Shown here: positions 3,154 to 15,240 of the stretch, piece by piece | How the letters are laid out: the number at the start of each line of letters is the position of its first letter | How positions within the stretch are numbered: position 1 is the stretch's first letter | Source of the DNA: an uncultured Flavobacteriaceae bacterium | GTDB lineage: Bacteria; Bacteroidota; Bacteroidia; Flavobacteriales; Flavobacteriaceae | NCBI GenBank assembly: GCA_947487895.1 | Contig: CANKYF010000016.1 | Location: 1-64,000 of the forward strand | DNA length: 64,000 bases | Direction: 5' to 3' | Notes under the pieces: model-generated | The model's database searches: none | Told to the model about the DNA's origin: nothing | The model's input: only the letters and a program-made list of their open reading frames with translations | Translations under genes and position numbers: made by a program

Positions 3154-3408
3154 ATGAAAAAACCTACTTTAACCCAAACCATGTATTGCTCTGTTTTTGG
3201 ACATAACTATCATGTGTCTAAAAAAGTGACTCGACACGTAAAAGAGTACACTTGCTCTCACTGCAAAAAGCAATTAACCACCAATAGTAACGGAAAATTA
3301 ATAGAATTGACACCTAAGTTTAAGGAAATAAATAGCATTCTAGAAAAAGTTCATAATGCCAGAGAGGAACGTTTAAGGAGAAAAACATCACTTTCATCGA
3401 TTTATTAA
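3154..3408 (+). CDS. Small zinc-ribbon-like protein, copy 1
   Basis: An 84-residue protein with the pattern Cys-x3-Gly-His followed about 20 residues later by Cys-x2-Cys (CSVFGH and CSHCKK). This CHCC set could bind one zinc. It resembles the short DUF1660-type 'C-x-x-F-G-H' proteins, but that assignment is tentative. Two paralogues occur at 3487 and 9486; copies 1 and 2 share HVKEYTC and the LTPKFKEIN stretch, so they arose by tandem duplication. The open frame extends back to 3055 inside the hydrolase gene, but similarity to copy 2 starts near 3154. The internal ATG at 3181 (MYCSVFGH) is also possible. Confidence 0.65.
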   Translation: MKKPTLTQTMYCSVFGHNYHVSKKVTRHVKEYTCSHCKKQLTTNSNGKLIELTPKFKEINSILEKVHNAREERLRRKTSLSSIY

Positions 3409-3486: not shown

Positions 3487-3729
3487 ATGAAAAACATTCA
3501 TTGCAAAGTATTTGGACATGATATCCGTCTAAGTAAAAATGTCACTTTCCACGTAAAGGAATACACTTGCAAAAACTGCAAAAAACAATTTACGACTAGT
3601 AGTAATGGTGAATTGGTTGAACTCACACCAAAGTTTAAAGAAATAAACGCGCTTTTAGAAAACATTCATAACAGACGCCTTATTAGAAGACAAAAATCGC
3701 ATCCTGAATTATTAGTGTTTAGGCATTAA
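3487..3729 (+). CDS. Small zinc-ribbon-like protein, copy 2
   Basis: An 80-residue paralogue of the preceding gene, with CKVFGH near the N-terminus and CKNCKK in the middle as candidate zinc ligands, then a charged, helical tail (LTPKFKEINALL). No signal peptide or membrane segment, so it is presumably cytosolic. Its last 11 bp overlap the 3' end of thiL on the opposite strand. Function unknown; a nucleic-acid- or protein-binding adaptor would fit a basic mini zinc ribbon. Confidence 0.7.
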   Translation: MKNIHCKVFGHDIRLSKNVTFHVKEYTCKNCKKQFTTSSNGELVELTPKFKEINALLENIHNRRLIRRQKSHPELLVFRH

Positions 3730-4765
3730 AATTTTTCCACCCTTGAGCTTTTAGCTCAATTTTTGTTTCAGCTCTAGTTATCAAATGAACACCATGCTCT
3801 TTTTCTCTCATAAAACCAATAACGGTTAAATTCGGGTTTGCCTTTATTTTAGGAAAGTCTTCTTGAGAAACTGTAAACAGCAATTCATAATCTTCTCCTC
3901 CATTCAACGCAACTGTTGTACTATCAATATTAAATTCTTCACATGTAGAAATAACTTGAGGATCTAAAGGAAGTTTATTTTCATATAAATCACATCCAAC
4001 ACCACTCTCTTTACAAATGTGAAGTATTTCAGAAGACAAACCATCACTAACATCAATCATAGAAGTTGGTTTAACTTCTAAATCTTCCAGCAACTTAACA
4101 ATATCTTTTCTAGCCTCTGGCTTTAATTGGCGTTCAACTATATAATTGTAAGGTTCTAAATCTGGTTGACTATTTGGATTCACTTTATAAACTTCTTTTT
4201 CTCTCTCTAAAACTTGTAACCCCATGTAAGCACCACCTAAATCTCCTGTTACAACTAATAAATCATTTGGTTTAGCGCCAGACCTGTAGACTTCTTTATT
4301 ATTTTTAACTTCTCCAATTGCTGTTACAGAAATTAATAATCCAGTCGTAGAAGAAGTGGTATCTCCTCCAACAACATCAACATTATATATTCTTGCTGCT
4401 GTTTCTATACCTGCATAAAGCTCTTCTAAAGCTTCTAAAGGATATCTATTAGACACCGCAATTGATACTGTAACTTGCGTTGCATTAGCATTCATTGCAT
4501 AAACATCAGACAAATTAACTACAACTGCCTTGTATCCTAAATGCTTAAGTGGCACATAACTTAAATCAAAGTGTACGTTTTCAACTAATAAATCTGTTGA
4601 TACAACAATCTTGTTTTGTTTAAAGTCTAAAACGGCCGCATCATCACCTATACCTTTTAAGGTTGAAGATTGTTTTATTTTAAAGTTTTTTGTTAAATGG
4701 TCTATTAAACCAAACTCACCTAAATCACTTAATTGTGTTCTTTGTTGATTCTTATCCTCTATCAT
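3719..4765 (-). CDS. thiL: Thiamine-monophosphate kinase
   Basis: Phosphorylates thiamine monophosphate to thiamine diphosphate using ATP, the last step of cofactor synthesis; cytosolic. The 348-residue protein belongs to the PurM/ThiL fold. GIGDDAAVLD (about residues 39-48) and STDLLVENVHF are the Mg-ATP/substrate motifs; VVGGDTTSS and DVSDGLSSE follow in the expected order. No other thiamine gene lies nearby. A -7 box (4770-4777) ends 4 nt before the ATG, which suggests a leaderless transcript. The 3' end overlaps a convergent small gene by 11 bp. Confidence 0.93.
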   Translation of the reverse strand: MIEDKNQQRTQLSDLGEFGLIDHLTKNFKIKQSSTLKGIGDDAAVLDFKQNKIVVSTDLLVENVHFDLSYVPLKHLGYKAVVVNLSDVYAMNANATQVTVSIAVSNRYPLEALEELYAGIETAARIYNVDVVGGDTTSSTTGLLISVTAIGEVKNNKEVYRSGAKPNDLLVVTGDLGGAYMGLQVLEREKEVYKVNPNSQPDLEPYNYIVERQLKPEARKDIVKLLEDLEVKPTSMIDVSDGLSSEILHICKESGVGCDLYENKLPLDPQVISTCEEFNIDSTTVALNGGEDYELLFTVSQEDFPKIKANPNLTVIGFMREKEHGVHLITRAETKIELKAQGWKNFNA

Positions 4766-4792: not shown

Positions 4793-4800
4793 TAATTTTG
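4793..4800 (+). promoter_or_regulatory. -7 box upstream of the lipoprotein operon
   Basis: TAATTTTG matches TAnnTTTG. It would start a transcript near 4806 with a leader of about 70 nt before the ATG at 4879. It is the only exact match upstream of this four-gene operon. Confidence 0.45.
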
Positions 4801-4878
4801 CTACATTACAATTAGTTTTTAAAAGTGTATTAATAATATATACGCTTTTAAATTCGTTTTAATAAAAAATTGCGCTTT

Positions 4879-6180
4879 ATGTATTACTTTATTAATAAAA
4901 ACTATACCCGAATTTTATTTGGGTTAGTTGGCATCTGTACTATAATTTATTCATGTGAAAGAGATAATAATATTCCTTTAAATGAAAATTTAGTTATAAA
5001 TGAAGATTTAGTTATAAATGAAGATTTAGTTATCAATGAAGATGTATTAGTTCCTTGCCTCAATGGCTTTGCAGATGGCTACCCGTGTAATGATTATGAT
5101 TTAATGGCACATATTCCCATCGACACTTTTAATGCTGATGATGGAAATGATTGCTGGGGATGGGTAGATCAATCTACAGGAAAAGAATATGCTATTATGG
5201 GTCTAGACAATGGTGTTGGGTTTGTAGATATATCAGACGCTTTAAACCCAGTTTACTTGGGCAAGCTTCCTACTGCTACTATTTCTAGTCCGTGGAGAGA
5301 CATAAAAATATATAATGATCATGCGTTTATTGTAGCAGATAATAATGTTGGGGAAGATAGTCATGGTATGCAAATTTTTGACCTTACTAGATTAGGTAAT
5401 GTGGCAAATCCGCCTGAAAACTTTACAGAAGATCTTCATTTCACAGATTTTGGTAGAGCTCATAATATTGTTATCAATGAAGATAGTGGTTATGCTTATA
5501 TAGTTGGCGGCAATAGAAATGACACATATTCTGGTGGACCAATTTTTGTAAATATTCAAAATCCAACAGCGCCTGTAATAGAGGGAGGTTTTGGTTTAGG
5601 AGGTTATTCTCATGACGCTCAAGTAGTCACTTATAATGGTCCCGATTCAGATTATACTGGGCAAGAAATTTTTATTGGCAGTAATGAAAATGAAGTCCTA
5701 ATTGTGAATGTTTCTGATAAAACTAACCCAACTATAATTTCTAGAATAACCTACAGCGATGTAAGATATGCGCACCAAGGTTGGTTTACTTCAGATATGA
5801 AATATTTTATATTAGGTGATGAATTAGATGAATTAAGACTGGGAATTGATAGTAAAACTATAGTCTTTGATTTCACAGATTTAGATGATCCTAAATTTCA
5901 CTTTAATTATTTTGGCCCTACTACAGCCATAGATCATAACGGCTATGTTAAAAACAATAATTTCTTCTATGCAAATTACAATGCTGGAATGCGCGTTTTA
6001 GATATTTCAGATATTAATAATAGTTCATTTACTGAAGTTGGATATTTCGATACCTATCCTGACAACGACAATACGGCTTTTGATGGTGCTTGGAGTGTAT
6101 ATCCTTACCTACCTAGTGGAAATATTATTATTAGTGATGTAACCAACGGGTTGTTTGTTGTTAGGAAAAGTGGTTCATAG
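4879..6180 (+). CDS. Choice-of-anchor-B / LVIVD-repeat lipoprotein
   Basis: A 433-residue lipoprotein. The hydrophobic N-terminus ends in a lipobox-like IIYSC followed by acidic residues (ERDN), suggesting export to the outer membrane, possibly the outer face. Next comes an in-frame repeat of the hexapeptide NEDLVI (4981-5052), then a beta-propeller of LVIVD type (GVGFVDISDA, GMRVLDISDI) typical of choice-of-anchor-B proteins. Histidine-rich strands (RAHNIVINED, YSHDAQ, YAHQGW, IDHNGY) are in the family pattern and could bind metal or ligand. I start at ATG 4879; the frame extends to a TTG at 4870, which is less likely. It is first in a four-gene operon with MbnP/MbnH-like genes. Confidence 0.82.
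   Translation: MYYFINKNYTRILFGLVGICTIIYSCERDNNIPLNENLVINEDLVINEDLVINEDVLVPCLNGFADGYPCNDYDLMAHIPIDTFNADDGNDCWGWVDQSTGKEYAIMGLDNGVGFVDISDALNPVYLGKLPTATISSPWRDIKIYNDHAFIVADNNVGEDSHGMQIFDLTRLGNVANPPENFTEDLHFTDFGRAHNIVINEDSGYAYIVGGNRNDTYSGGPIFVNIQNPTAPVIEGGFGLGGYSHDAQVVTYNGPDSDYTGQEIFIGSNENEVLIVNVSDKTNPTIISRITYSDVRYAHQGWFTSDMKYFILGDELDELRLGIDSKTIVFDFTDLDDPKFHFNYFGPTTAIDHNGYVKNNNFFYANYNAGMRVLDISDINNSSFTEVGYFDTYPDNDNTAFDGAWSVYPYLPSGNIIISDVTNGLFVVRKSGS
4981..5052 (+). repeat. 18-bp in-frame tandem repeat (NEDLVI linker)
   Basis: Three near-identical 18-bp units (4981-4998, 4999-5016, 5017-5034) are followed by a degenerate fourth. They encode NENLVI, NEDLVI, NEDLVI, NEDVLV between the lipidated cysteine and the propeller. 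Slippage would change linker length without breaking the frame. Confidence 0.9.
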
Positions 6181-6189
6181 TCTCTTACT

Positions 6190-7539
6190 ATGTTTACAAT
6201 CGAAAAAAAATACAGCCCTATACTAGTTATACTTTTTACGTTTTTAATTTTTAATTGTTCTGGTACAGATACTCCTAAAACACCTAGTCTTCTAGATAAA
6301 GAAATTGATTTTGTAAAAACACTCGGTGGTTCTAAAAATGAAAGTGCTAGGTCCATAATAAATACCACAGACGGTGGTTATGCTGTTTTAGGATATGCTC
6401 AAAGTATGGATGGTGATCTGAATAATAAAACAGATGAATCTTTTGATTATTGGTTGCTAAAATTTGACACAAACAACAACCTATTATGGCAAAAAACCTA
6501 TGGAGGAAGTGATGATGATAGAGGCAACAGTATTATTGAAACACAAGATGGCGGTTTTGCTATTTTAGGATCAAGTAAAAGTAGTAATGGAGATGTATCT
6601 ACTAATAATGGCTTTAATGATTTCTGGATCATTAAAACAGATACCTCTGGAAATATTTCTTGGGAAAAATCGTTTGGTTTTTCAGGTGCTGATGATGGCA
6701 TCTCAATAATTCAAACAAATGATAATGGGTTTCTTATTACTGGCGTTCTTGATGTAACAGCTTCTAACGGTCAAGGAAACACAAAGCAAATTACAACTAA
6801 GCGACATGCTGGAGGAGATTATTGGGCTATAAAACTAGATACTAGCGGCAATATAGAATGGAGCAAATTCTTTGGTGGCACTTTTACAGACACATCATAT
6901 GGAGTTGTTCAAACCAATGATAACGACTATATTCTCGTTGGCTCTTCAGATAGTGAAGATGTAGATATTAACAATAACAAAGGGGTCTATGATTTTTGGG
7001 TCATTAAAATTTCTGAAACAGGAAGTTTACTTTGGGAAAAATCTTTTGGAGGATCTCAAGCAGACGAAGCCAGAGGAATTACCAAAACCAACGATGGCAA
7101 CTTTATGATAATTGGCGATACCAGAAGTAGCGACAAAGATGTTTCATCTAATAATGGTGCTGCCGATTTTTGGATCATTAAAATGTCTAGTAACGGAAAT
7201 TTAATCTGGGAAAAAACGTTTGGAGGCACTAGTTTTGATGCAGCACGATCAATCACAAAAACACTAGATGGTGGTTTTGTCATAACAGGTAACTCTAGAA
7301 GCTCAGATATAGATGTTGATAGTAACAATGGTCAAAACGATGCTTGGATCATTAAAATAGATAATCTTGGTAACCTTCAATGGGAAAAAAGTGTTGGCGG
7401 CACCAGTGTTGATTTAGCTTATGGCGCTATAGAATTAAATGACGGCTCCGTAATTGTAGTTGGAGATTCAAGCAGTTCAGATCTAGACATTATAGAAAAT
7501 AAGGGGTTCACAGATGCCTTAATTTTTAAAATAAAATAA
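6190..7539 (+). CDS. Seven-repeat beta-propeller lipoprotein
   Basis: A 449-residue protein with an N-terminal signal ending in a lipobox (LIFNC, Cys24). From about residue 40 to the end there are seven repeats of 50-66 residues. Each starts K-x-x-GG and continues with SI-x-x-T-x-DGG, a short G/S-rich strand, a DV-x-x-NNG loop, DFWIIK, and GN-x-x-WE. Seven blades predict a closed propeller with DxD-type loops that may bind calcium. I do not recognise an enzyme active site. It begins 9 bp after the previous stop and 9 bp before the MbnP-like gene, so the four genes are surely co-transcribed; a surface scaffold or partner role is inferred. Confidence 0.75.
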   Translation: MFTIEKKYSPILVILFTFLIFNCSGTDTPKTPSLLDKEIDFVKTLGGSKNESARSIINTTDGGYAVLGYAQSMDGDLNNKTDESFDYWLLKFDTNNNLLWQKTYGGSDDDRGNSIIETQDGGFAILGSSKSSNGDVSTNNGFNDFWIIKTDTSGNISWEKSFGFSGADDGISIIQTNDNGFLITGVLDVTASNGQGNTKQITTKRHAGGDYWAIKLDTSGNIEWSKFFGGTFTDTSYGVVQTNDNDYILVGSSDSEDVDINNNKGVYDFWVIKISETGSLLWEKSFGGSQADEARGITKTNDGNFMIIGDTRSSDKDVSSNNGAADFWIIKMSSNGNLIWEKTFGGTSFDAARSITKTLDGGFVITGNSRSSDIDVDSNNGQNDAWIIKIDNLGNLQWEKSVGGTSVDLAYGAIELNDGSVIVVGDSSSSDLDIIENKGFTDALIFKIK

Positions 7540-7548
7540 ATTACTTTC

Positions 7549-8313
7549 ATGGATAGGATAGCCTCAATATTACTTGTTTTTTCATTACTGTTTTCATGTA
7601 GTTCTGATGATGAAAAAGTCAAAGATGTAACTATAAATTTAAATTTTTCTCATGTTTGGGATGGTGAATCTGTTTCTAATACAGATTTCAATACCATTAA
7701 ATTTACAAATGCTAATGGAGAAGAATTAAGTATTGAAAGGCTTAGATACCTTATTTCAGATGTCACTTTAAAAACTGTAAACGGAGCATCAATTGTAATT
7801 GATGCTTATAACTTAGTAGATGTTACTAACAATACAAATCTAAATTTCACACCTTCAACGACCATTTCAGAAGGAACATATTCTAGCTTATCATTCACAT
7901 TTGGTTTTAAAAACGAAAAGAATATTGATGCTGCTTATCAAGATTTAAATTCGGTATCTTTTGGAGTTCCTGCAATGCTTGGTGGAGGCTATCATTACAT
8001 GCAAATGGATGGGAAATTTATAAATAACTTAGACCAAGAACAGGGTTATAATTATCATGCCATTAGAGCTGCAGACAACCCTGGAGCCAATCCTACATTT
8101 CCGCAAGACACTTTTTTTAAAGTTGACCTCGGTTCTGTAACTGTTTCTGGAGATACCACTTTTAATATTGAAATGAATATTGCCGAATGGTTTAAAACAC
8201 CCCATACTTGGGATTTAAACGTTTTAAATCAGGCACTCATGCCAAATTCTTCTGCTCAAATAATTATGCATGATAACGGACAAAGCGTATTCAGCTTAAA
8301 ATCTACTAATTAA
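7549..8313 (+). CDS. MbnP-like copper-binding lipoprotein
   Basis: A 254-residue lipoprotein with lipobox LLFSC (Cys17) followed by SSDDEK, which resembles the flavobacterial surface-export signal. The body matches the MbnP family: an opening beta strand LNFSHVWDGE (residues 31-40), IERLRYLISDVTL, GTYSSLSFTFG, and a C-terminal AEWFKTPHTWD with a final strand IIMHDNG. In studied MbnP/CorA proteins a partner di-haem enzyme oxidises one tryptophan to kynurenine, which then helps bind copper with histidines. W37 beside H35, and the C-terminal HTW, are candidates; I cannot say which is modified. The next gene encodes that type of partner. Confidence 0.8.
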   Translation: MDRIASILLVFSLLFSCSSDDEKVKDVTINLNFSHVWDGESVSNTDFNTIKFTNANGEELSIERLRYLISDVTLKTVNGASIVIDAYNLVDVTNNTNLNFTPSTTISEGTYSSLSFTFGFKNEKNIDAAYQDLNSVSFGVPAMLGGGYHYMQMDGKFINNLDQEQGYNYHAIRAADNPGANPTFPQDTFFKVDLGSVTVSGDTTFNIEMNIAEWFKTPHTWDLNVLNQALMPNSSAQIIMHDNGQSVFSLKSTN

Positions 8314-8320
8314 TAAATTA

Positions 8321-9379
8321 TTGAAAAATTGGGTCTTATATATCTGTTACTTCTTCATTTTCATTTGCTTTTCTTGTTCAAATGAAACAATAGATAATTA
8401 TAGTCCAACGCCAAGTCCTTTAGAAATTCCGCAACTATTTCAAGAGAAAATTTTAGCGCCTGTTATACCAATTGATAATCCGCAAACAGTTGAAGGCATA
8501 GCTCTAGGGAAAAAATTGTTCTTTGATCCTATTCTATCTGCAAACCAAACACAAGCCTGTGCAGATTGTCACGCTCCAGAAAATGCATTTACAGACAATG
8601 ATAGGTTTAGTGATGGTATAAATGGTATTTTAGGCATTCGCAATTCTATGCCTCTTTTTAATTTAGCCTGGAATTATGATGAAAAATTCTTTTGGGATGG
8701 CAAATCTTTTAGCTTAGAGCAACAAGCATTCTTACCTGTTGTAGATATCAATGAAATGGGAGATACTTGGCAAAACGTTGAACAAAAACTTCAGAATCAC
8801 TCAGAATATCCCGAGTTATTTAATCAAGCCTTTGGAACTTCTCAAATTGATTCTATTTTGGTTACAAAAGCCATTGCTCAATTTGAACGAACACTAATAT
8901 CAGCAAATTCAAAATTTGATAAATTCCTTTTAGGAGAAGCTAGTTTAACTCCTGAAGAGCAAAACGGTTTTAATGTATTTATGGATGAAAACAGAGGTGA
9001 TTGTTTTCATTGTCATGGTAGCGAAAACAATCCGTTGTGGACAGATAATTTATTTCATAACAATGGTTTAGACTCAGAATTCTCAGATTTAGGACTTGGA
9101 GCCATTACTGGAGATCCCGCAGATAATGGAAAATTTAAATCCCCTTCACTTAGAAATTTAGCCTTTACAGCACCCTATATGCACGATGGTAGATTTTCAA
9201 TCTTAGAAGACGTTATTAATCATTATAGTGAGGGTTTGCAAAACTCGCCAACCATTGACCCCCTTATGAAAAAAGTAGCGCAAGGAGGTGTTCAATTAAC
9301 GGAAAAGGACAAAGCAGATTTAAAAGCTTTCTTATCAACACTGTCAGATTTAGACTTCATAAAAACCTTTAAAAATTAG
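8321..9379 (+). CDS. MbnH-like di-haem cytochrome c peroxidase family lipoprotein
   Basis: A 352-residue periplasmic or surface lipoprotein of the CcpA/MauG superfamily. It has two CxxCH haem c sites, CADCH (80-84) and CFHCH (228-232), plus the family motif PYMHDGRF. The N-terminus has a lipobox-like CFSC (Cys19) with NETID behind it. The start is TTG at 8321, only 7 bp after the MbnP-like stop: no ATG occurs until about residue 110, well past the signal and first haem. Placement directly after an MbnP-like gene argues for an MbnH-type tryptophan-oxidising role rather than plain H2O2 detoxification. That is inference from family and context. Confidence 0.85.
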   Translation: MKNWVLYICYFFIFICFSCSNETIDNYSPTPSPLEIPQLFQEKILAPVIPIDNPQTVEGIALGKKLFFDPILSANQTQACADCHAPENAFTDNDRFSDGINGILGIRNSMPLFNLAWNYDEKFFWDGKSFSLEQQAFLPVVDINEMGDTWQNVEQKLQNHSEYPELFNQAFGTSQIDSILVTKAIAQFERTLISANSKFDKFLLGEASLTPEEQNGFNVFMDENRGDCFHCHGSENNPLWTDNLFHNNGLDSEFSDLGLGAITGDPADNGKFKSPSLRNLAFTAPYMHDGRFSILEDVINHYSEGLQNSPTIDPLMKKVAQGGVQLTEKDKADLKAFLSTLSDLDFIKTFKN

Positions 9380-9390
9380 CAATCAAGACA

Positions 9391-9404
9391 TTAACATTTG
9401 TTAA
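9391..9404. promoter_or_regulatory. TTAACATTTGTTAA inverted repeat near a -7 box
   Basis: Arms TTAACA and TGTTAA flank a 2-bp centre, immediately upstream of the -7 box at 9406. The same 14-mer occurs at 18105-18118 upstream of the DUF3078 gene's -7 box, with different spacing. It could be a shared operator or coincidence in AT-rich DNA. Confidence 0.35.
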
Positions 9405-9405
9405 T

Positions 9406-9413
9406 TATTTTTG
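9406..9413 (+). promoter_or_regulatory. -7 box of the third zinc-ribbon gene
   Basis: TATTTTTG matches TAnnTTTG; it would give a leader of about 65 nt before the ATG at 9486. Confidence 0.5.
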
Positions 9414-9485
9414 CGAAATGTGGTTTTTCAACATTAAATCGTGAAAGAATTTTAGTAACTTAAGACTACTAAAAAGCCTAAGAAC

Positions 9486-9701
9486 ATGAAATCTAAAACA
9501 ATTACTAATTTATATTGTTATGCCTATGGGCATAACTACCATCGTTTGGAAAAAGCAGGTCCAAATACTCCAGAATTAATTTGTAAAAACTGCAAAAAAC
9601 AGTTCATGTATAACGAACATGGTGAAATAGTTGATTTTGAAACTAAAAAGAACAAAAGAACCACTATACCTAATAATTTTAAGCACCTGTATATAAGATA
9701 A
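9486..9701 (+). CDS. Small zinc-ribbon-like protein, copy 3
   Basis: A 71-residue paralogue of the genes at 3154 and 3487. It keeps the candidate zinc ligands (CYAYGH and CKNCKK) and the following NxxGEIV motif, but the loop between them has diverged and the tail differs. It sits alone between the MbnH-like gene and the SUF operon, with its own promoter-like box. No signal peptide. Function unknown. Confidence 0.7.
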   Translation: MKSKTITNLYCYAYGHNYHRLEKAGPNTPELICKNCKKQFMYNEHGEIVDFETKKNKRTTIPNNFKHLYIR

Positions 9702-9814
9702 TTGTAACTATCAATATTTCTAACAGAACTATTTACACTACAACCCTATTTGCCATAACTAAAAGGCTATAATCTCTCCTATAATCATTCAAAAATAGTT
9801 GTTTCTAAAACAGC

Positions 9815-9829
9815 ATAAGTATAACTTAT
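9815..9829. promoter_or_regulatory. Inverted repeat upstream of SUF operon (distal)
   Basis: ATAAGT and ACTTAT are separated by 3 bp, a perfect 6-bp inverted repeat. It lies 55 bp upstream of the SUF -7 box and next to a second inverted repeat at 9833-9865. A possible regulator site. Confidence 0.35.
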
Positions 9830-9832
9830 AAA

Positions 9833-9865
9833 ACCATATAATAATATAATGTTAGGTTATATGGT
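9833..9865. promoter_or_regulatory. Inverted repeat overlapping the SUF -33 region
   Basis: Perfect 9-bp arms ACCATATAA (9833-9841) and TTATATGGT (9857-9865) have a 15-bp centre. The right arm covers the expected -33 region of the promoter whose -7 box is at 9884. A dimeric repressor bound here would block the SUF operon. The regulator is unknown; no Rrf2/IscR-type gene is in the window. Confidence 0.45.
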
Positions 9866-9883
9866 AATCCCTGACTTATATTG

Positions 9884-9891
9884 TATATTTG
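9884..9891 (+). promoter_or_regulatory. -7 box of the SUF operon promoter
   Basis: TATATTTG matches TAnnTTTG. It predicts a start near 9896 and a leader of about 34 nt to the ATG at 9930. Confidence 0.6.
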
Positions 9892-9929
9892 CAGTCAATT
9901 TAGCGCAAATCTAAATTAAAATATAGGGT

Positions 9930-10259
9930 ATGATCAAAGTTTCAGAAACAGCAAAGAAAAAAGTAATAGAGCTTATGACCGACGATGGTTTTAATGCTTC
10001 TACTGATTTTGTTCGTGTTGGCGTAAAAAGTGGAGGTTGTTCTGGTTTATCTTACGATTTAAAGTTTGACAAAGAGCAACAAGATGGAGATAAAGTGTTT
10101 GAGGATAATGGCGTAAAAATCATTGTAGACAAAAAAAGTTTTTTATACTTAATAGGGACTACTTTAGAATATTCCGGAGGATTAAACGGAACTGGGTTTG
10201 TATTTAATAATCCAAATGCCAATAGAACATGCGGTTGTGGCGAATCGTTTTCACTTTAA
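9930..10259 (+). CDS. sufA: A-type iron-sulfur carrier (SufA/IscA family)
   Basis: A 109-residue carrier that accepts nascent Fe-S clusters and passes them to apoproteins; cytosolic. It has the three conserved cysteines: one in SGGCSGLSY (about residue 39) and the pair in the C-terminal CGCGESF. Length is typical of the HesB/IscA family. It is first in the SUF operon, 19 bp before sufB. The sufA name rests on context, since sequence alone does not separate SufA from IscA or ErpA. Confidence 0.92.
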   Translation: MIKVSETAKKKVIELMTDDGFNASTDFVRVGVKSGGCSGLSYDLKFDKEQQDGDKVFEDNGVKIIVDKKSFLYLIGTTLEYSGGLNGTGFVFNNPNANRTCGCGESFSL

Positions 10260-10278
10260 TTTTTAAGAGAGAGCAAAT

Positions 10279-11727
10279 ATGTCTAAATATACTGAAGACG
10301 ATTTAAGAGAAGAACTAAAAACCAAAGAGTACGAATACGGTTTTTATACAGATATAGAATCTGAAACATTTCCTAATGGTTTAAATGAAGATATAGTTAA
10401 AGCCATTTCTAAAAAGAAAGAAGAGCCAGAATGGATGACTGAATGGCGTTTAGAAGCTTTTAGAATATGGAAAGACATGGAAGAGCCGGAGTGGGCAAAT
10501 GTAAATTATGAAAAACCAGATTTTCAAGGTATTTCTTATTATTCTGCACCAAATAGCAAGCCTAAATATGATAGTATAGACGAAGTTGATCCTGAATTAT
10601 TAGCCACTTTTGATAAACTAGGGATCTCTTTAGATGAACAAAAGAAATTAGCAGGAGTAGCAATGGATGTTGTTGTAGATTCTGTTTCTGTAGCAACTAC
10701 ATTTAAAGAAACCTTAGCAGAACAAGGTATTATTTTCATGAGTATTTCAGAAGCTATTAAAGAGCATCCTGAATTAGTAAAAAAATATATAGGTACAGTA
10801 GTACCTCAAAAAGATAATTTCTATGCAGCATTAAATAGTGCTGTATTTAGTGATGGAAGTTTCTGTTATATTCCTAAAGGCGTTAGATGCCCAATGGAAT
10901 TATCTACTTACTTTAGAATTAATCAAGCAGGAACAGGACAATTTGAAAGAACATTAGTCATCGCAGATGAAGGCAGCTATGTTAGTTATCTTGAAGGCTG
11001 TACAGCACCAAGCAGAGATGAAAATCAGTTACATGCTGCAGTTGTAGAATTGATTGCTTTAGATGATTCTGAAATCAAGTATTCAACAGTACAAAACTGG
11101 TTTCCTGGTAATGCTGAAGGTAAAGGTGGTGTTTTCAATTTTGTTACTAAACGTGGTTTATGCGAAACAAATGCTAAAATCTCTTGGACACAAGTTGAAA
11201 CTGGAAGTGCTGTTACGTGGAAATACCCATCATGTGTATTAAAGGGAAATAATTCTGTTGGAGAATTCTACTCAATTGCTGTAACCAATAACTATCAACA
11301 AGCAGATACTGGTACTAAAATGATTCACTTAGGTAAAAACACTAAGTCTACTATCATTTCAAAAGGTATTTCTGCAGGAAAATCTCAAAATTCATATCGT
11401 GGTTTGGTTCAAATAAACTCTAGAGCAGAAAATGCACGTAACTTTTCACAATGTGATAGTTTATTAATGGGTAATGAGTGCGGTGCACATACGTTCCCTT
11501 ATATAGAAGCTAAAAATCAAACAGCTCAGATAGAGCATGAGGCTACAACTAGTAAAATTGGTGAAGACCAAATATTCTATTGTAACCAAAGAGGTATTGA
11601 TACAGAAAAAGCCATTGCATTAATTGTGAACGGATTTAGTAAAGAAGTATTAAATAAACTCCCAATGGAGTTTGCTGTTGAAGCACAAAAATTATTAGAA
11701 ATAAGTTTAGAAGGAAGTGTTGGTTAA
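10279..11727 (+). CDS. sufB: Fe-S cluster scaffold subunit SufB
   Basis: A 482-residue SufB, the scaffold subunit on which the cluster is built within the SufBC2D complex. Family segments are visible: [27 protein letters not shown]-type region near residues 190-215, YLEGCTAP, and the C-terminal [12 protein letters not shown] plus [15 protein letters not shown] with ligand residues. Full length. It is followed after 44 bp by sufC, the operon's ATPase gene. Confidence 0.97.
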
Positions 11728-11771
11728 TCCAGAAATTCCTTTAAAAAATATAAATAACGAAGCCAATAAGT

Positions 11772-12524
11772 ATGTTAAAGATAGAAAACCTACACGCAGG
11801 TGTTGAAGATAAAAGTATTTTAAAAGGTATTAACTTAGAGGTTAAACCTGGTGAAGTTCATGCTATTATGGGACCTAACGGATCTGGTAAAAGTACCTTA
11901 TCGTCTGTAATTGCTGGTAAAGAAGAATATGAAGTATCTGAAGGAAACATCGTTTTTGAAGGTGAAGATATTGAAGAGTTAGCTGCTGAAGAAAGAGCTC
12001 ATAAAGGCATCTTTTTATCGTTTCAGTATCCAGTTGAAATTCCTGGTGTGTCTGTAACTAACTTTGTTAAAACTGCTATTAACGAAACTAGAAAAGCAAA
12101 AGGATTAGAAGACATGCCTGCTAAGGATATGTTGAAGTTAATTCGTGAAAAATCAGACCTTTTAGAAATAGATAGAAAGTTTCTATCACGTTCTTTAAAT
12201 GAAGGCTTTTCTGGCGGAGAAAAGAAGCGTAATGAAATCTTTCAAATGGCTATGTTAGAACCTAAACTAGCAATTCTTGATGAAACAGATTCTGGTTTAG
12301 ATATTGATGCGCTTAGAATTGTTGCTAACGGTGTAAACAAACTTAAAAGCAAAGACAACGCAGTTATTGTAATTACACATTACCAAAGGTTGTTAGATTA
12401 CATAGTACCAGACTTTGTACATGTTTTACATAATGGTAAAATTGTAAAATCTGGAACAAAAGAATTGGCTCACGAGCTTGAAGAAAAAGGATACGACTGG
12501 ATTAAAGACGAAGTTAACGTTTAA
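11772..12524 (+). CDS. sufC: Fe-S assembly ATPase SufC
   Basis: A 250-residue ABC-type ATPase that drives the SufBCD scaffold; soluble, not a transporter. Walker A is GPNGSGKST (about residues 34-42), the Q-loop lies in SFQYP, the signature is FSGGEKKR, Walker B is LAILDETDSGLD, and the switch histidine is in VITHYQRL. The ETDSGLDID variant is typical of SufC. It is separated from sufD by a 97-bp gap that is almost wholly a palindromic element. Confidence 0.97.
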   Translation: MLKIENLHAGVEDKSILKGINLEVKPGEVHAIMGPNGSGKSTLSSVIAGKEEYEVSEGNIVFEGEDIEELAAEERAHKGIFLSFQYPVEIPGVSVTNFVKTAINETRKAKGLEDMPAKDMLKLIREKSDLLEIDRKFLSRSLNEGFSGGEKKRNEIFQMAMLEPKLAILDETDSGLDIDALRIVANGVNKLKSKDNAVIVITHYQRLLDYIVPDFVHVLHNGKIVKSGTKELAHELEEKGYDWIKDEVNV

Positions 12525-12535
12525 TGTTAATACAA

Positions 12536-12618
12536 TTTGTCATTCCTGCGAAAGTAGGAATCCAAAAAAAGGTTTAAGTTAATATTAAAAAGATTCCTGC
12601 CTTCGCAGGAATGACAAA
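12536..12618. repeat. 83-bp REP-like inverted repeat between sufC and sufD
   Basis: Two 27-bp arms (12536-12562 and 12592-12618) are inverted copies with two mismatches, flanking a 29-bp AT-rich centre. Each arm is itself a small hairpin (ATTCCT with AGGAAT; CCTGC with GCAGG). This looks like interspersed palindromes of the 'GTCATTCCTGCGAA' type. In RNA it would form a large stem between two co-transcribed genes. Confidence 0.85.
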
Positions 12619-12621
12619 AAT

Positions 12622-13935
12622 ATGAGTTTAAAAGAAAAATTATTATCGTCTTTTATAGTGTTTGAAAACCAAGCAGAAGTAGATTCTTATGTAAATGAGG
12701 TTAGAAACGAAGCTATAAAAACCTTTGAAGAAAAAGGATTCCCAACAAAAAAGGACGAAGCTTGGAAATATACTTCTCTAAATAAAATTTTAAAAGAAGA
12801 TTATAGTGTATTCCCAAAACAAGAAAATGCTCTAGAATACAAAGACGTTAAAAAATATTTCATTCATGATATAGACACTTATAAAATCGTGTTTATTGAT
12901 GGCAAGTATTCATCTCATCTTTCTGAGACCACACATGATGGTATAGATGTATGTCTAATGTCTGCTGCTTTAACCAAGCCAAAATACAGATTGGTAATAG
13001 AAAACTATTTTAATAAAGCATCAAACAAAGATAGCCTATCATCTCTTAATACAGCATTTTCTAAAGAAGGGGCATATATACATATCCCTAAAGGAAAAGT
13101 TGTTGAAAAGCCAATTCAAATCATTCATTTCTCAACAGGAGATGAATCTTCAACCATGTTACAACCACGTAACTTAATAGTTGTTGAAGAGAATTCGCAT
13201 GTACAAATTATAGAACGTCACCAAAGTTTAACTAGTAACCCCGTTTTAACTAATAGTGTTACAGAAGTTTTTGCTAAAAAACGCGCTATAATAGATTATT
13301 ATAAAATACAGAACGACACACAAGCATCTTCTTTAATAGACAATACATTTATTAAACAAAAACAAGAAAGCTTTGTATCTGTTCACACCTTCTCTTTTGG
13401 TGGTAAGTTAACCCGCAATAATCTTAACTTTTACCAAGAAGGAGAGCGTATAGATTCTACACTTAAAGGAGTTACTATTATTGGTGATAAACAACATGTA
13501 GATCACAATACACTGGTACATCATATAGAACCAAATTGCGAAAGTCACCAAGACTACAAAGGTATTTTTGCAGATAGTTCTACAGGCGTATTTAATGGTA
13601 AAGTAGTAGTAGAAAAAGAAGCGCAAAAAACCAATGCATTTCAAGCTAATAATAATATTTTAATTAGTGACAAAGCTGCCATTAATACGAAACCTCAATT
13701 AGAGATTTTTGCAGATGATGTAAAGTGTTCTCATGGTTGTACCATTGGTCAGTTAGATGAAAGTGCATTATTTTACATGCGCTCTCGCGGAATTCCAGAA
13801 AAAGAAGCTAAAGCACTTTTAATGTATGCATTTAGTAACAACGTTTTAAGTTCGGTTAAAATACCAGAAATTAAAGAACGAATTACTAAAATTATTGCCA
13901 AACAATTAGGTGTTAATATTGGTTTCGATTTATAA
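12622..13935 (+). CDS. sufD: Fe-S cluster assembly protein SufD
   Basis: A 437-residue SufB paralogue that completes the SufBC2D scaffold; needed for iron entry in studied systems. The N-terminus has the helical KKDEAWKYTSLNKIL motif, and the beta-helix core ends with the family block KCSHGCTIGQLDESALFYMRSRGIPEKEA (positions near 375-405 by reading), containing the conserved cysteine and histidine. Its ATG begins 4 bp after the REP-like repeat, so translation could depend on that structure. Confidence 0.95.
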   Translation: MSLKEKLLSSFIVFENQAEVDSYVNEVRNEAIKTFEEKGFPTKKDEAWKYTSLNKILKEDYSVFPKQENALEYKDVKKYFIHDIDTYKIVFIDGKYSSHLSETTHDGIDVCLMSAALTKPKYRLVIENYFNKASNKDSLSSLNTAFSKEGAYIHIPKGKVVEKPIQIIHFSTGDESSTMLQPRNLIVVEENSHVQIIERHQSLTSNPVLTNSVTEVFAKKRAIIDYYKIQNDTQASSLIDNTFIKQKQESFVSVHTFSFGGKLTRNNLNFYQEGERIDSTLKGVTIIGDKQHVDHNTLVHHIEPNCESHQDYKGIFADSSTGVFNGKVVVEKEAQKTNAFQANNNILISDKAAINTKPQLEIFADDVKCSHGCTIGQLDESALFYMRSRGIPEKEAKALLMYAFSNNVLSSVKIPEIKERITKIIAKQLGVNIGFDL

Positions 13936-13942
13936 AATATTC

Positions 13943-14014
13943 AGAAGCTATTTCCTGCTATTCGCTGTTTCTTTTTCTCGTTCCTCAAAAAAGGATGCCG
14001 CTACTATCAGGGCT
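13943..14014. repeat. Interspersed flavobacterial repeat between sufD and sufS
   Basis: This 72-bp stretch has higher GC than its surroundings and starts with AGAAGCTATTTCCTGCTATT. A shortened copy with 16 of 17 matching bases occurs inverted at 37636-37652. It resembles interspersed repeats I recall from other Flavobacteriaceae. It fills most of the sufD-sufS gap. Confidence 0.6.
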
Positions 14015-14025
14015 AATAAACAACT

Positions 14026-15240
14026 ATGTTAAACGTTGAAGACATCAGAAAAGATTTTCCCATTCTTTCAAGAAAAGTAAATGGTAAGCCTTTAGTATAT
14101 TTTGATAATGCTGCAACATCGCAGACACCTCAACAAGTAATAGATGCTATAGTAGATTATTACTCTAACTACAACGCCAATATTCATAGAGGTGTACATA
14201 CGTTGAGTCAGGAAGCTACAGACTTGTATGAACTGTCCAGACAAAAAGTACAAGCACATTTCAATGCAAAACATAGCTACGAAATCATTTTCACATCAGG
14301 TACAACTCACAGTATTAACTTAATTGCAAACGGGTTTTCTTCATTACTCAAAAAAGGTGATGAAATCATAGTTTCTGCCTTAGAACACCATAGTAACATT
14401 GTTCCTTGGCAAATGTTATGTGAGCGCACAGGTGCTTTATTAAAAGTCATTCCAATGAATGATGATGGAGAATTGGTAATGTCTGAATACGATAAATTAT
14501 TATCTAAAAACACAAAACTGGTATTCACCAATCATATTTCTAATGCTTTAGGAACCATTAATCCTATTAAATATATTATTGAAGAAGCGCATAAAGTTGG
14601 TGCCGCTGTTTTAATAGATGGTGCACAGGCTTGCCCACATATTAAACCAGATGTACAAGCTCTAAATGTTGATTTCTATGTGGCTTCTGCTCATAAAATG
14701 TGTGGTCCAACCGGCATGGGAATGCTCTACGGAAAAGAAGAATGGCTAAATAAATTACCTCCTTATCAAGGTGGTGGTGAAATGATTGCTGAAGTTTCTT
14801 TTGAAAAAACCACGTATGCCGATTTACCTCATAAATTTGAGGCAGGAACTCCAAACATTGCTGGAGGCATTGTGTTTGGAACTGCCATAGATTATATGAA
14901 CAGTATAGGTTTTGATGCTATTGCAGATTATGAAAATGAATTACTAGAATACGGCACACAGAAACTTTTAGAAATTGAAGGTTTAAAAATTTACGGAACT
15001 TCAAAACACAAAACATCGGTACTGTCATTCAACTTAGAAGGTATTCATCCTTATGATGTAGGTTCTATTCTAGATAAATTAGGAATTGCTGTTAGAACAG
15101 GTCATCATTGTGCGCAACCTATTATGGATTACTACAAAATACCTGGAACTATCAGAGCTTCATTCGCTTTTTACAACACCAAAGCAGAAATTGATGCTTT
15201 AGTTGAAGGTGTTAAAAAAGCTAAAATGATGTTGTCTTAA
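14026..15240 (+). CDS. sufS: Cysteine desulfurase SufS
   Basis: A 404-residue PLP enzyme that takes sulfur from cysteine and hands it to SufE for cluster building. The PLP lysine is K224 in SAHKMCGPTG. The catalytic cysteine is C362 in RTGHHCAQPIM, typical of group II desulfurases with a SufE partner. The N-terminal FPILSRKVNGKPLVYFDNAATSQ-type region and EHHSNIVPWQ match the family. It is in the SUF operon; sufE lies two genes downstream. Confidence 0.97.
   Translation: MLNVEDIRKDFPILSRKVNGKPLVYFDNAATSQTPQQVIDAIVDYYSNYNANIHRGVHTLSQEATDLYELSRQKVQAHFNAKHSYEIIFTSGTTHSINLIANGFSSLLKKGDEIIVSALEHHSNIVPWQMLCERTGALLKVIPMNDDGELVMSEYDKLLSKNTKLVFTNHISNALGTINPIKYIIEEAHKVGAAVLIDGAQACPHIKPDVQALNVDFYVASAHKMCGPTGMGMLYGKEEWLNKLPPYQGGGEMIAEVSFEKTTYADLPHKFEAGTPNIAGGIVFGTAIDYMNSIGFDAIADYENELLEYGTQKLLEIEGLKIYGTSKHKTSVLSFNLEGIHPYDVGSILDKLGIAVRTGHHCAQPIMDYYKIPGTIRASFAFYNTKAEIDALVEGVKKAKMMLS

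Follow-up and report, generated by a model that had tools for sequence, protein, structure and literature searches.

The four-gene operon described here lies at positions 4879-9379 on the forward strand of a 64,000-nucleotide stretch (the window) of contig CANKYF010000016.1, assembly GCA_947487895.1, from an uncultured Flavobacteriaceae bacterium. It encodes, in this order, a choice-of-anchor B protein (gene 1), a repeat protein of the SBBP type (gene 2), a member of the MbnP family (gene 3) and a di-haem enzyme of the MbnH/MauG type (gene 4). Comparison across Flavobacteriaceae confirms a conserved four-gene lipoprotein operon whose gene order is kept far beyond chance, and its constant core is the pair formed by genes 1 and 2, not the MbnP/MbnH pair. 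The reading we prefer, to which we give about an even chance, is that the cassette encodes a surface-anchored metal/redox lipoprotein complex, separate from the adjacent suf genes, to which MbnP and MbnH are attached in one branch of the propeller-pair tree.

The four genes are separated by gaps of 9, 9 and 7 bp. Gene 1 (4879..6180, ATG start; its residue numbers count from an in-frame TTG at 4870, the mechanical start) is a clear member of the choice-of-anchor B family (TIGR04312, 543 bits against a cut-off of 100), for which we know of no function, and family and structural model together establish it as a propeller. Its constant partner, gene 2 (6190..7539), reaches no curated family above cut-off, the top match being NF047494 (LipL53 SBBP propeller, 60.5 bits against 400). 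Where an initial reading of the window made from the letters and open reading frames (the sequence-only reading) had seen two propellers, the first is thus firm and the second only probable. Gene 3 (7549..8313) passes PF20243 (MbnP, 94.2 bits against a gathering cut-off of 27), has no NCBIfam match at E 0.01, and falls outside TIGR04052, the number given for the metallo-mystery pair four-Cys protein in the excerpt of PMC3621798. Gene 4 (8321..9379, TTG start) passes PF03150 (189 bits against 25.6) and stays under the cut-offs of both TIGR04039 (MbnH, 243.2 bits against a curated 362.85) and TIGR03791 (MauG, 189 bits against 444). Its closest solved relative is the di-heme enzyme in PDB 6e1c (E 3.9e-49), which we take to be the MbnH of Methylosinus.

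A lipobox-like Cys is present in each of the four window proteins, as the sequence-only reading had noted. Its further remark that acidic residues stand right after the Cys in three of them holds loosely, the residues from the Cys on being CERDNN, CSGTDT, CSSDDE and CSNETID for genes 1 to 4. Among fetched homologues belonging to cassettes with the type A MbnH (defined below), a loose pattern applied to mechanical start codons finds such a Cys in 23/23 proteins for gene 3, 23/23 for gene 4, 22/23 for gene 2 and 22/34 for gene 1.

Gene order was followed in 199 Flavobacteriaceae genomes, one per genus, searched with each component of the cassette; gene 2 homologues were counted at ≥38% identity, and MbnH homologues at ≥57% identity or where they adjoin an MbnP. 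Gene 2 is found at 99 loci in 99 genomes, with a choice-of-anchor B gene upstream (within 700 bp) in at least 92 of them and MbnP downstream (within 600 bp) in 67. MbnP itself occurs in 99 of the 199 genomes (110 matches), and the MbnH enzymes that accompany it are of two kinds, type A (≥57% identical to gene 4) and the distant type B (36-47%). Type A follows 61 of the 110 MbnP matches, and in 60 of these gene 2 lies directly upstream, the last ending at a contig end. Type B accounts for 42 matches away from gene 2 and for six pairs inside the cassette, in one of which (G179) MbnP and MbnH are 4 kb apart, with other genes in between; the remaining match is a fragment of a split locus (G124). 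A second set comprises 80 loci with public titles, from isolates and metagenome-assembled genomes (Algibacter, Flavivirga, Hyunsoonleella, Winogradskyella, Bizionia and others). The order choice-of-anchor B, SBBP, MbnP, MbnH is present in 72 of them; the other eight are six pairs outside the cassette, one locus cut just upstream of MbnP (L321) and one, with suf genes, that ends at a contig end (L276). The sequence-only reading had named loss of gene order among relatives as grounds for doubt; the order is conserved, which favours a real system.

Several variants of the layout were seen. Three to five tandem choice-of-anchor B genes precede gene 2 at four loci (L163, L169, L170 and L171), and at L167 genes for a sensor kinase and a LuxR-type response regulator (9256-12668) separate MbnP from MbnH. 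Outside Flavobacteriaceae there is a nearly full-length SBBP homologue with 38% identity (G412), and no relatives of gene 3 were found in viral contigs.

The operon had been described as built around the MbnP/MbnH pair. This is rejected, since MbnP is missing beside gene 2 at 32 of the 99 loci, 31 of which still have choice-of-anchor B upstream. Of these 32 genomes, all but three lack MbnP altogether, and suf genes follow in 20 of the 22 such loci that were fetched. Trees were built on subsets (41 rows for MbnH, 52 for SBBP). In the gene 2 tree, loci with MbnP/MbnH separate from loci that lack them (support 99/94), and types A and B interchange inside the bearing branch, with at least two changes forced. 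The MbnH tree resolves two lineages (100/100); the six type B pairs in the slot form one clade (95/99), and type A pairs from other locations fall among those of cassettes, so that these trees are compatible with gain as well as with loss of MbnP/MbnH. That pairs of two different MbnP/MbnH lineages occupy the slot behind gene 2 speaks for propellers and pair being functionally linked. Small C-x-GKC proteins (112-141 amino acids) were observed near pairs outside the cassette (L172-L178, L181, L319 and L325), where 8 of the 9 type B pairs and 2 of the 7 type A-like ones have one; the two of these proteins that were tested matched no Pfam family.

Gene 1 is predicted to carry a metal site. Four histidines, H198, H248, H302 and H356 (codons starting at 5461, 5611, 5773 and 5935; span 5461..5937, forward strand), are invariant in all 69 choice-of-anchor B proteins fetched from Flavobacteriaceae. 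Together with D317, E318 and N357, they are also invariant in every row of a 34-sequence alignment that combines five cassette sequences with 29 from across the class. Judged by sequence, the four lie at equivalent places of successive repeats, and the other three of the seven repeat positions are occupied by Trp (W96 in 32/34 rows, W142 in 33/34 and W408 in 34/34). The choice-of-anchor B family is common in the class (119 of 198 class-level genomes), so the four histidines are not specific to the cassette; being invariant beyond Flavobacteriaceae, they imply that any metal in gene 1 need not be copper nor depend on gene 4. Copper-binding propellers of the SELENBP1 type (the excerpt of PMC10362175) are absent from the best 50 listed fold matches of the gene 1 model.

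The model of gene 1 (pLDDT 88.2) has its best PDB match in 5hrm (E 1.4e-12; the next unrelated fold gives 9.5e-9), the phosphotriesterase of Sphingobium TCM1, a seven-bladed propeller with an embedded binuclear metal centre according to the title cited in PMC11656708. Gene 1 might accordingly be read as a metal-dependent hydrolase of phosphotriesterase- or lactonase-like kind, with gene 2 as its partner, with MbnP/MbnH supplying or protecting the metal or merely co-transcribed, and with the operon as a whole scavenging a nutrient. We consider this unlikely. The invariant H302-x14-D-E of gene 1 and the rank of 5hrm as top sequence match of the gene 1 profile (itself insignificant, E 0.26) speak for it. 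Against it, the likeness is at fold level only (14% identity, root mean square deviation (rmsd) 7.0), the alignment stretch that places H198 on a 5hrm His scores 1.8 bits only, so that equivalence of ligands is not shown, and the cassette has no transport or phosphate genes.

By its sequence, gene 4 is a MauG-like relative of MbnH. It has two haem-binding motifs, CADCH (C80-H84, 8558..8572, with C80, C83 and H84 in 58/58 homologues) and CFHCH (C228-H232, 9002..9016, 58/58). Also present in 58/58 are Trp125 (8693..8695), presumably the inter-haem Trp position of the superfamily, and Tyr302 (9224..9226), which aligns with the Tyr of YSEG in 6e1c and which we take to be the Tyr haem-ligand position of MauG and MbnH. 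Among type A homologues identity to gene 4 is 57-79%, the ranges of genes 1 to 3 being lower, which makes gene 4 the most strongly conserved gene of the cassette.

The model of gene 3 (pLDDT 89.9) has the MbnP fold, matching MbnP in PDB 7l6g with probability 1.00 (E 2.1e-8, TM-score 0.59); with the haem motifs of gene 4, this bears out the pairing of MbnP-like and MbnH-like proteins recognized in the sequence-only reading. In Methylosinus MbnP the kynurenine reportedly (Manesis et al. 2021) arises from the Trp that opens a WxW motif. The profile of flavobacterial type B MbnPs places its WxW on the WNW of 7l6g, at an E-value of only 0.032. Type A and type B profiles in turn align at a probability of 99.8%, which places residue 138 on the first Trp of WxW. 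In gene 3, codon 138 (7960..7962, forward strand) encodes Phe and residues 138-140 read FGV in place of the WxW of the kynurenine-type copper site. By this profile-profile alignment kynurenine cannot form at its usual place in the window strain, and we infer that position 138 carries none. W37 and the C-terminal Trp, which had been put forward as the marked residues, are not where the known kynurenine site aligns.

Counting that of the window, 54 of the 61 type A MbnPs have Trp at residue 138 and seven, the window's among them, have Phe; of the 80 publicly titled loci, which overlap the 61 and were read by eye, 68 have Trp there, 10 have Phe and two have another or an unreadable residue. The full WxW survives in only 11 of the 61 cassette type A MbnPs, against seven of seven in a group of related pairs (L316, L319, L321 and L325-L328). 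By parsimony on a quick tree without support values, Trp138 has been lost at least twice, the loss in the window being separate from that in a clade of six. The best reading of these alignments is that the kynurenine site of gene 3 is eroding. Other residues are invariant in 61/61, namely H149, H170, W221, M231, Q237 and N243. His149 (7993..7995), kept also in seven of seven of the L316-L328 group, is a candidate metal ligand, and His170 (8056..8058) corresponds in the alignment to the His of the type B MbnP motif xHxGS.

These patterns bear on three further explanations. In the model that follows the sequence-only reading, MbnH would oxidize a Trp of gene 3 to kynurenine and so create a copper site, as happens in Methylosinus, and the propellers would serve for docking. 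The intact MbnP fold and MbnH residues, the first Trp kept in most type A homologues and the WxW visible by eye in the alignment of all six in-slot type B MbnPs are in its favour. Phe at position 138 of gene 3 and the scarcity of full WxW in cassette type A MbnPs count against it, and leave it quite improbable for the window. It may instead be supposed that MbnP/MbnH are decaying in the window lineage, the copper role of MbnP lost and MbnH acting as a plain peroxidase. The repeated loss of Trp138, with Phe in 10 of the 80 titled loci, speaks for such decay; the strong conservation of gene 4, which keeps its tested catalytic positions, and the retention of H149, H170, W221, M231 and Q237 throughout the type A MbnPs make us give it little credence.

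It has also been considered that the Trp-oxidizing chemistry of MbnH has been retargeted, to Trp221 of MbnP or to aromatics of the propeller partners. A new target residue would explain why the WxW of type A MbnPs is eroding in the cassette although the enzyme remains intact. If true, the product would be a new protein-derived metal or redox cofactor on the cell surface. Trp221 and the ring of gene 1 are, however, retained even alongside an intact WxW or without MbnH, and retargeting seems to us a long shot.

The cassette usually sits between thiL (3719..4765, reverse strand, divergent; TIGR01379, 322 bits) and the genes for a SufA-like protein, sufB, sufC, sufD and sufS (9930..15240, forward strand), a location missed in the sequence-only reading; the suf genes do not belong to the cassette. 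For 76 of the 99 gene 2 loci sufB could be judged, being among the matches listed, and in 71 of these it lies 0.5-7.0 kb downstream on the same strand. Two of the five exceptions end at contig ends (G124 and G170) and three (G135, G177 and G035) are truly away from suf; two further cassettes (L273 and L289) have no suf gene in a 6 kb flank. Where sufB is listed but MbnP stands without gene 2, MbnP and sufB are no more than 12 kb apart in only 2 of 34 cases, one being the split G124 locus. In genomes free of gene 2 (20 loci fetched out of 74 with listed sufB), thiL and sufA lie within 1.5 kb of each other in 18 of 19 measurable loci.

The octamer TAnnTTTG, which we take to be the flavobacterial -7 element, occurs upstream of both units. 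Before gene 1 there is a weak pattern match (4793..4800, forward strand), starting 86 bp before the ATG, that may mark a cassette promoter; in relatives the pattern is present in 16 of 46 thiL-gene 1 stretches against 10.3 in shuffles. Before sufA, a promoter-like site of the same pattern, TATATTTG (9884..9891, forward strand), stands separate from the cassette, and the pattern recurs there at 43 of 47 loci with the cassette (8.2 in shuffles) and at 17 of 19 loci free of gene 2 (4.0 in shuffles). These counts use mechanical starts and letter-only shuffles, and include one misparsed interval (L163, 10,949 bp) and one empty one (L220). With a promoter-like site of its own before sufA, with and without the cassette, the suf operon looks independently transcribed. 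A joint role of cassette and suf in Fe-S cluster assembly or in defence against peroxide therefore has a poor prospect: the frequent same-strand sufB downstream speaks for it, while the thiL-sufA neighbourhood that persists without the cassette, the separate suf promoter-like site and the cassettes found away from suf speak against it. Adjacency to suf is consequently not accepted as a functional link and is read as a slot in a conserved gene block, not as proof of shared function.

Two observations were made in this neighbourhood. Three small open reading frames that flank the cassette (3154-3408, 3487-3729 and 9486-9701) share a GH-x(3)...C-x2-CKKQ pattern and look alike by eye, and relatives of the one at 3487 recur near thiL in many fetched loci. 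At locus L127 (genome G035), which has a cassette without MbnP/MbnH, the neighbours in place of suf are genes for a protein that has both cytochrome c and c7 domains and for a large protein that is TAT-like by eye.

In the mechanism that we favour, the operon would encode an outer-membrane, probably surface-exposed lipoprotein complex whose core is the repeat-lipoprotein pair of choice-of-anchor B and SBBP, the MbnP/MbnH module being attached in one branch. Gene 1 would be a propeller that binds metal through the four His found at corresponding places of its repeats. Gene 4, a di-haem oxidase of the MauG/MbnH type, would use peroxide to act on a partner lipoprotein, and gene 3 would be the metal-binding MbnP partner. 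Given Phe138, either gene 3 would hold its metal through the conserved His and Met without kynurenine, or gene 4 would oxidize another residue. The complex may serve to capture copper or a similar metal at the cell surface, or to handle it there. Formation of a complex by the four proteins and the oxidase role of gene 4 are predictions, and the copper idea is only partly supported.

Several points weigh against this mechanism. The surface location is read from signal sequences only. Both fold matches are remote, at 13-14% identity with rmsd 7.0 for gene 1 against 5hrm (14%) and 5.8 for gene 3, and homologues of gene 1 from other families of the class keep all four of its His without exception. 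Phe138 here and the eroded WxW in most cassette MbnPs weaken the only established link to copper, and about a third of gene 2 loci do without MbnP. No copper transporter, chaperone or other known copper gene is present in the cassette, and the usual company of the pair is missing too, C-x-GKC proteins occurring in 0 of 29 fetched cassette stretches.

The cassette offers a setting, across a large marine family, in which MbnP/MbnH is an exchangeable add-on to two repeat lipoproteins. Its natural variants with (WxW), with half (WxV) or without (FxV) the kynurenine Trp, all with the enzyme kept, make the need for kynurenine directly testable, and the same series lets other actions of MbnH be tested. 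Four invariant His are in addition flagged in the widespread choice-of-anchor B family. No functional paper on that family, and so no account of its His positions, was found in the open-licence literature searched, nor was a description there of a conserved lipoprotein operon with MbnP and an MbnH-type enzyme. This is weak evidence of novelty; the sequence-only reading likewise knew of no characterized system with this composition.

The function of MbnP and MbnH is known from methanotrophs. The pair of Methylosinus trichosporium (7l6g and 6e1c) resembles that of the window in its adjacent genes, the MbnP fold, the same di-haem family and the Tyr at the ligand position. The PDB name of 7l6g is 'metallo-mystery pair system four-Cys motif protein', and PMC3621798 names GenProp0940 in this connection. 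The window pair differs from it in an MbnP without WxW, in an MbnH below the TIGR04039 cut-off, in its position behind two repeat lipoproteins and in a cassette without methanobactin genes. MauG belongs to the same di-haem superfamily as gene 4; its family model scores gene 4 far below cut-off, and no methylamine dehydrogenase gene is present in the cassette. In MopE/SACCP and CorA/CorB of methanotrophs, the likeness lies in a surface-associated copper protein co-transcribed with a di-haem peroxidase-like protein (excerpt of PMC3912023). As far as that excerpt goes, CorA is a surface Cu(I) protein with kynurenine, co-transcribed with its di-haem protein, and CorB is reported mainly in the periplasm. 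In PMC3621798 MbnP is said to have no marked sequence similarity to MopE or CorA. The kynurenine site is present in these methanotroph systems, unlike in gene 3. CorA/CorB, as that excerpt of PMC3912023 presents it, is thus a precedent for a surface copper protein with a di-haem partner.

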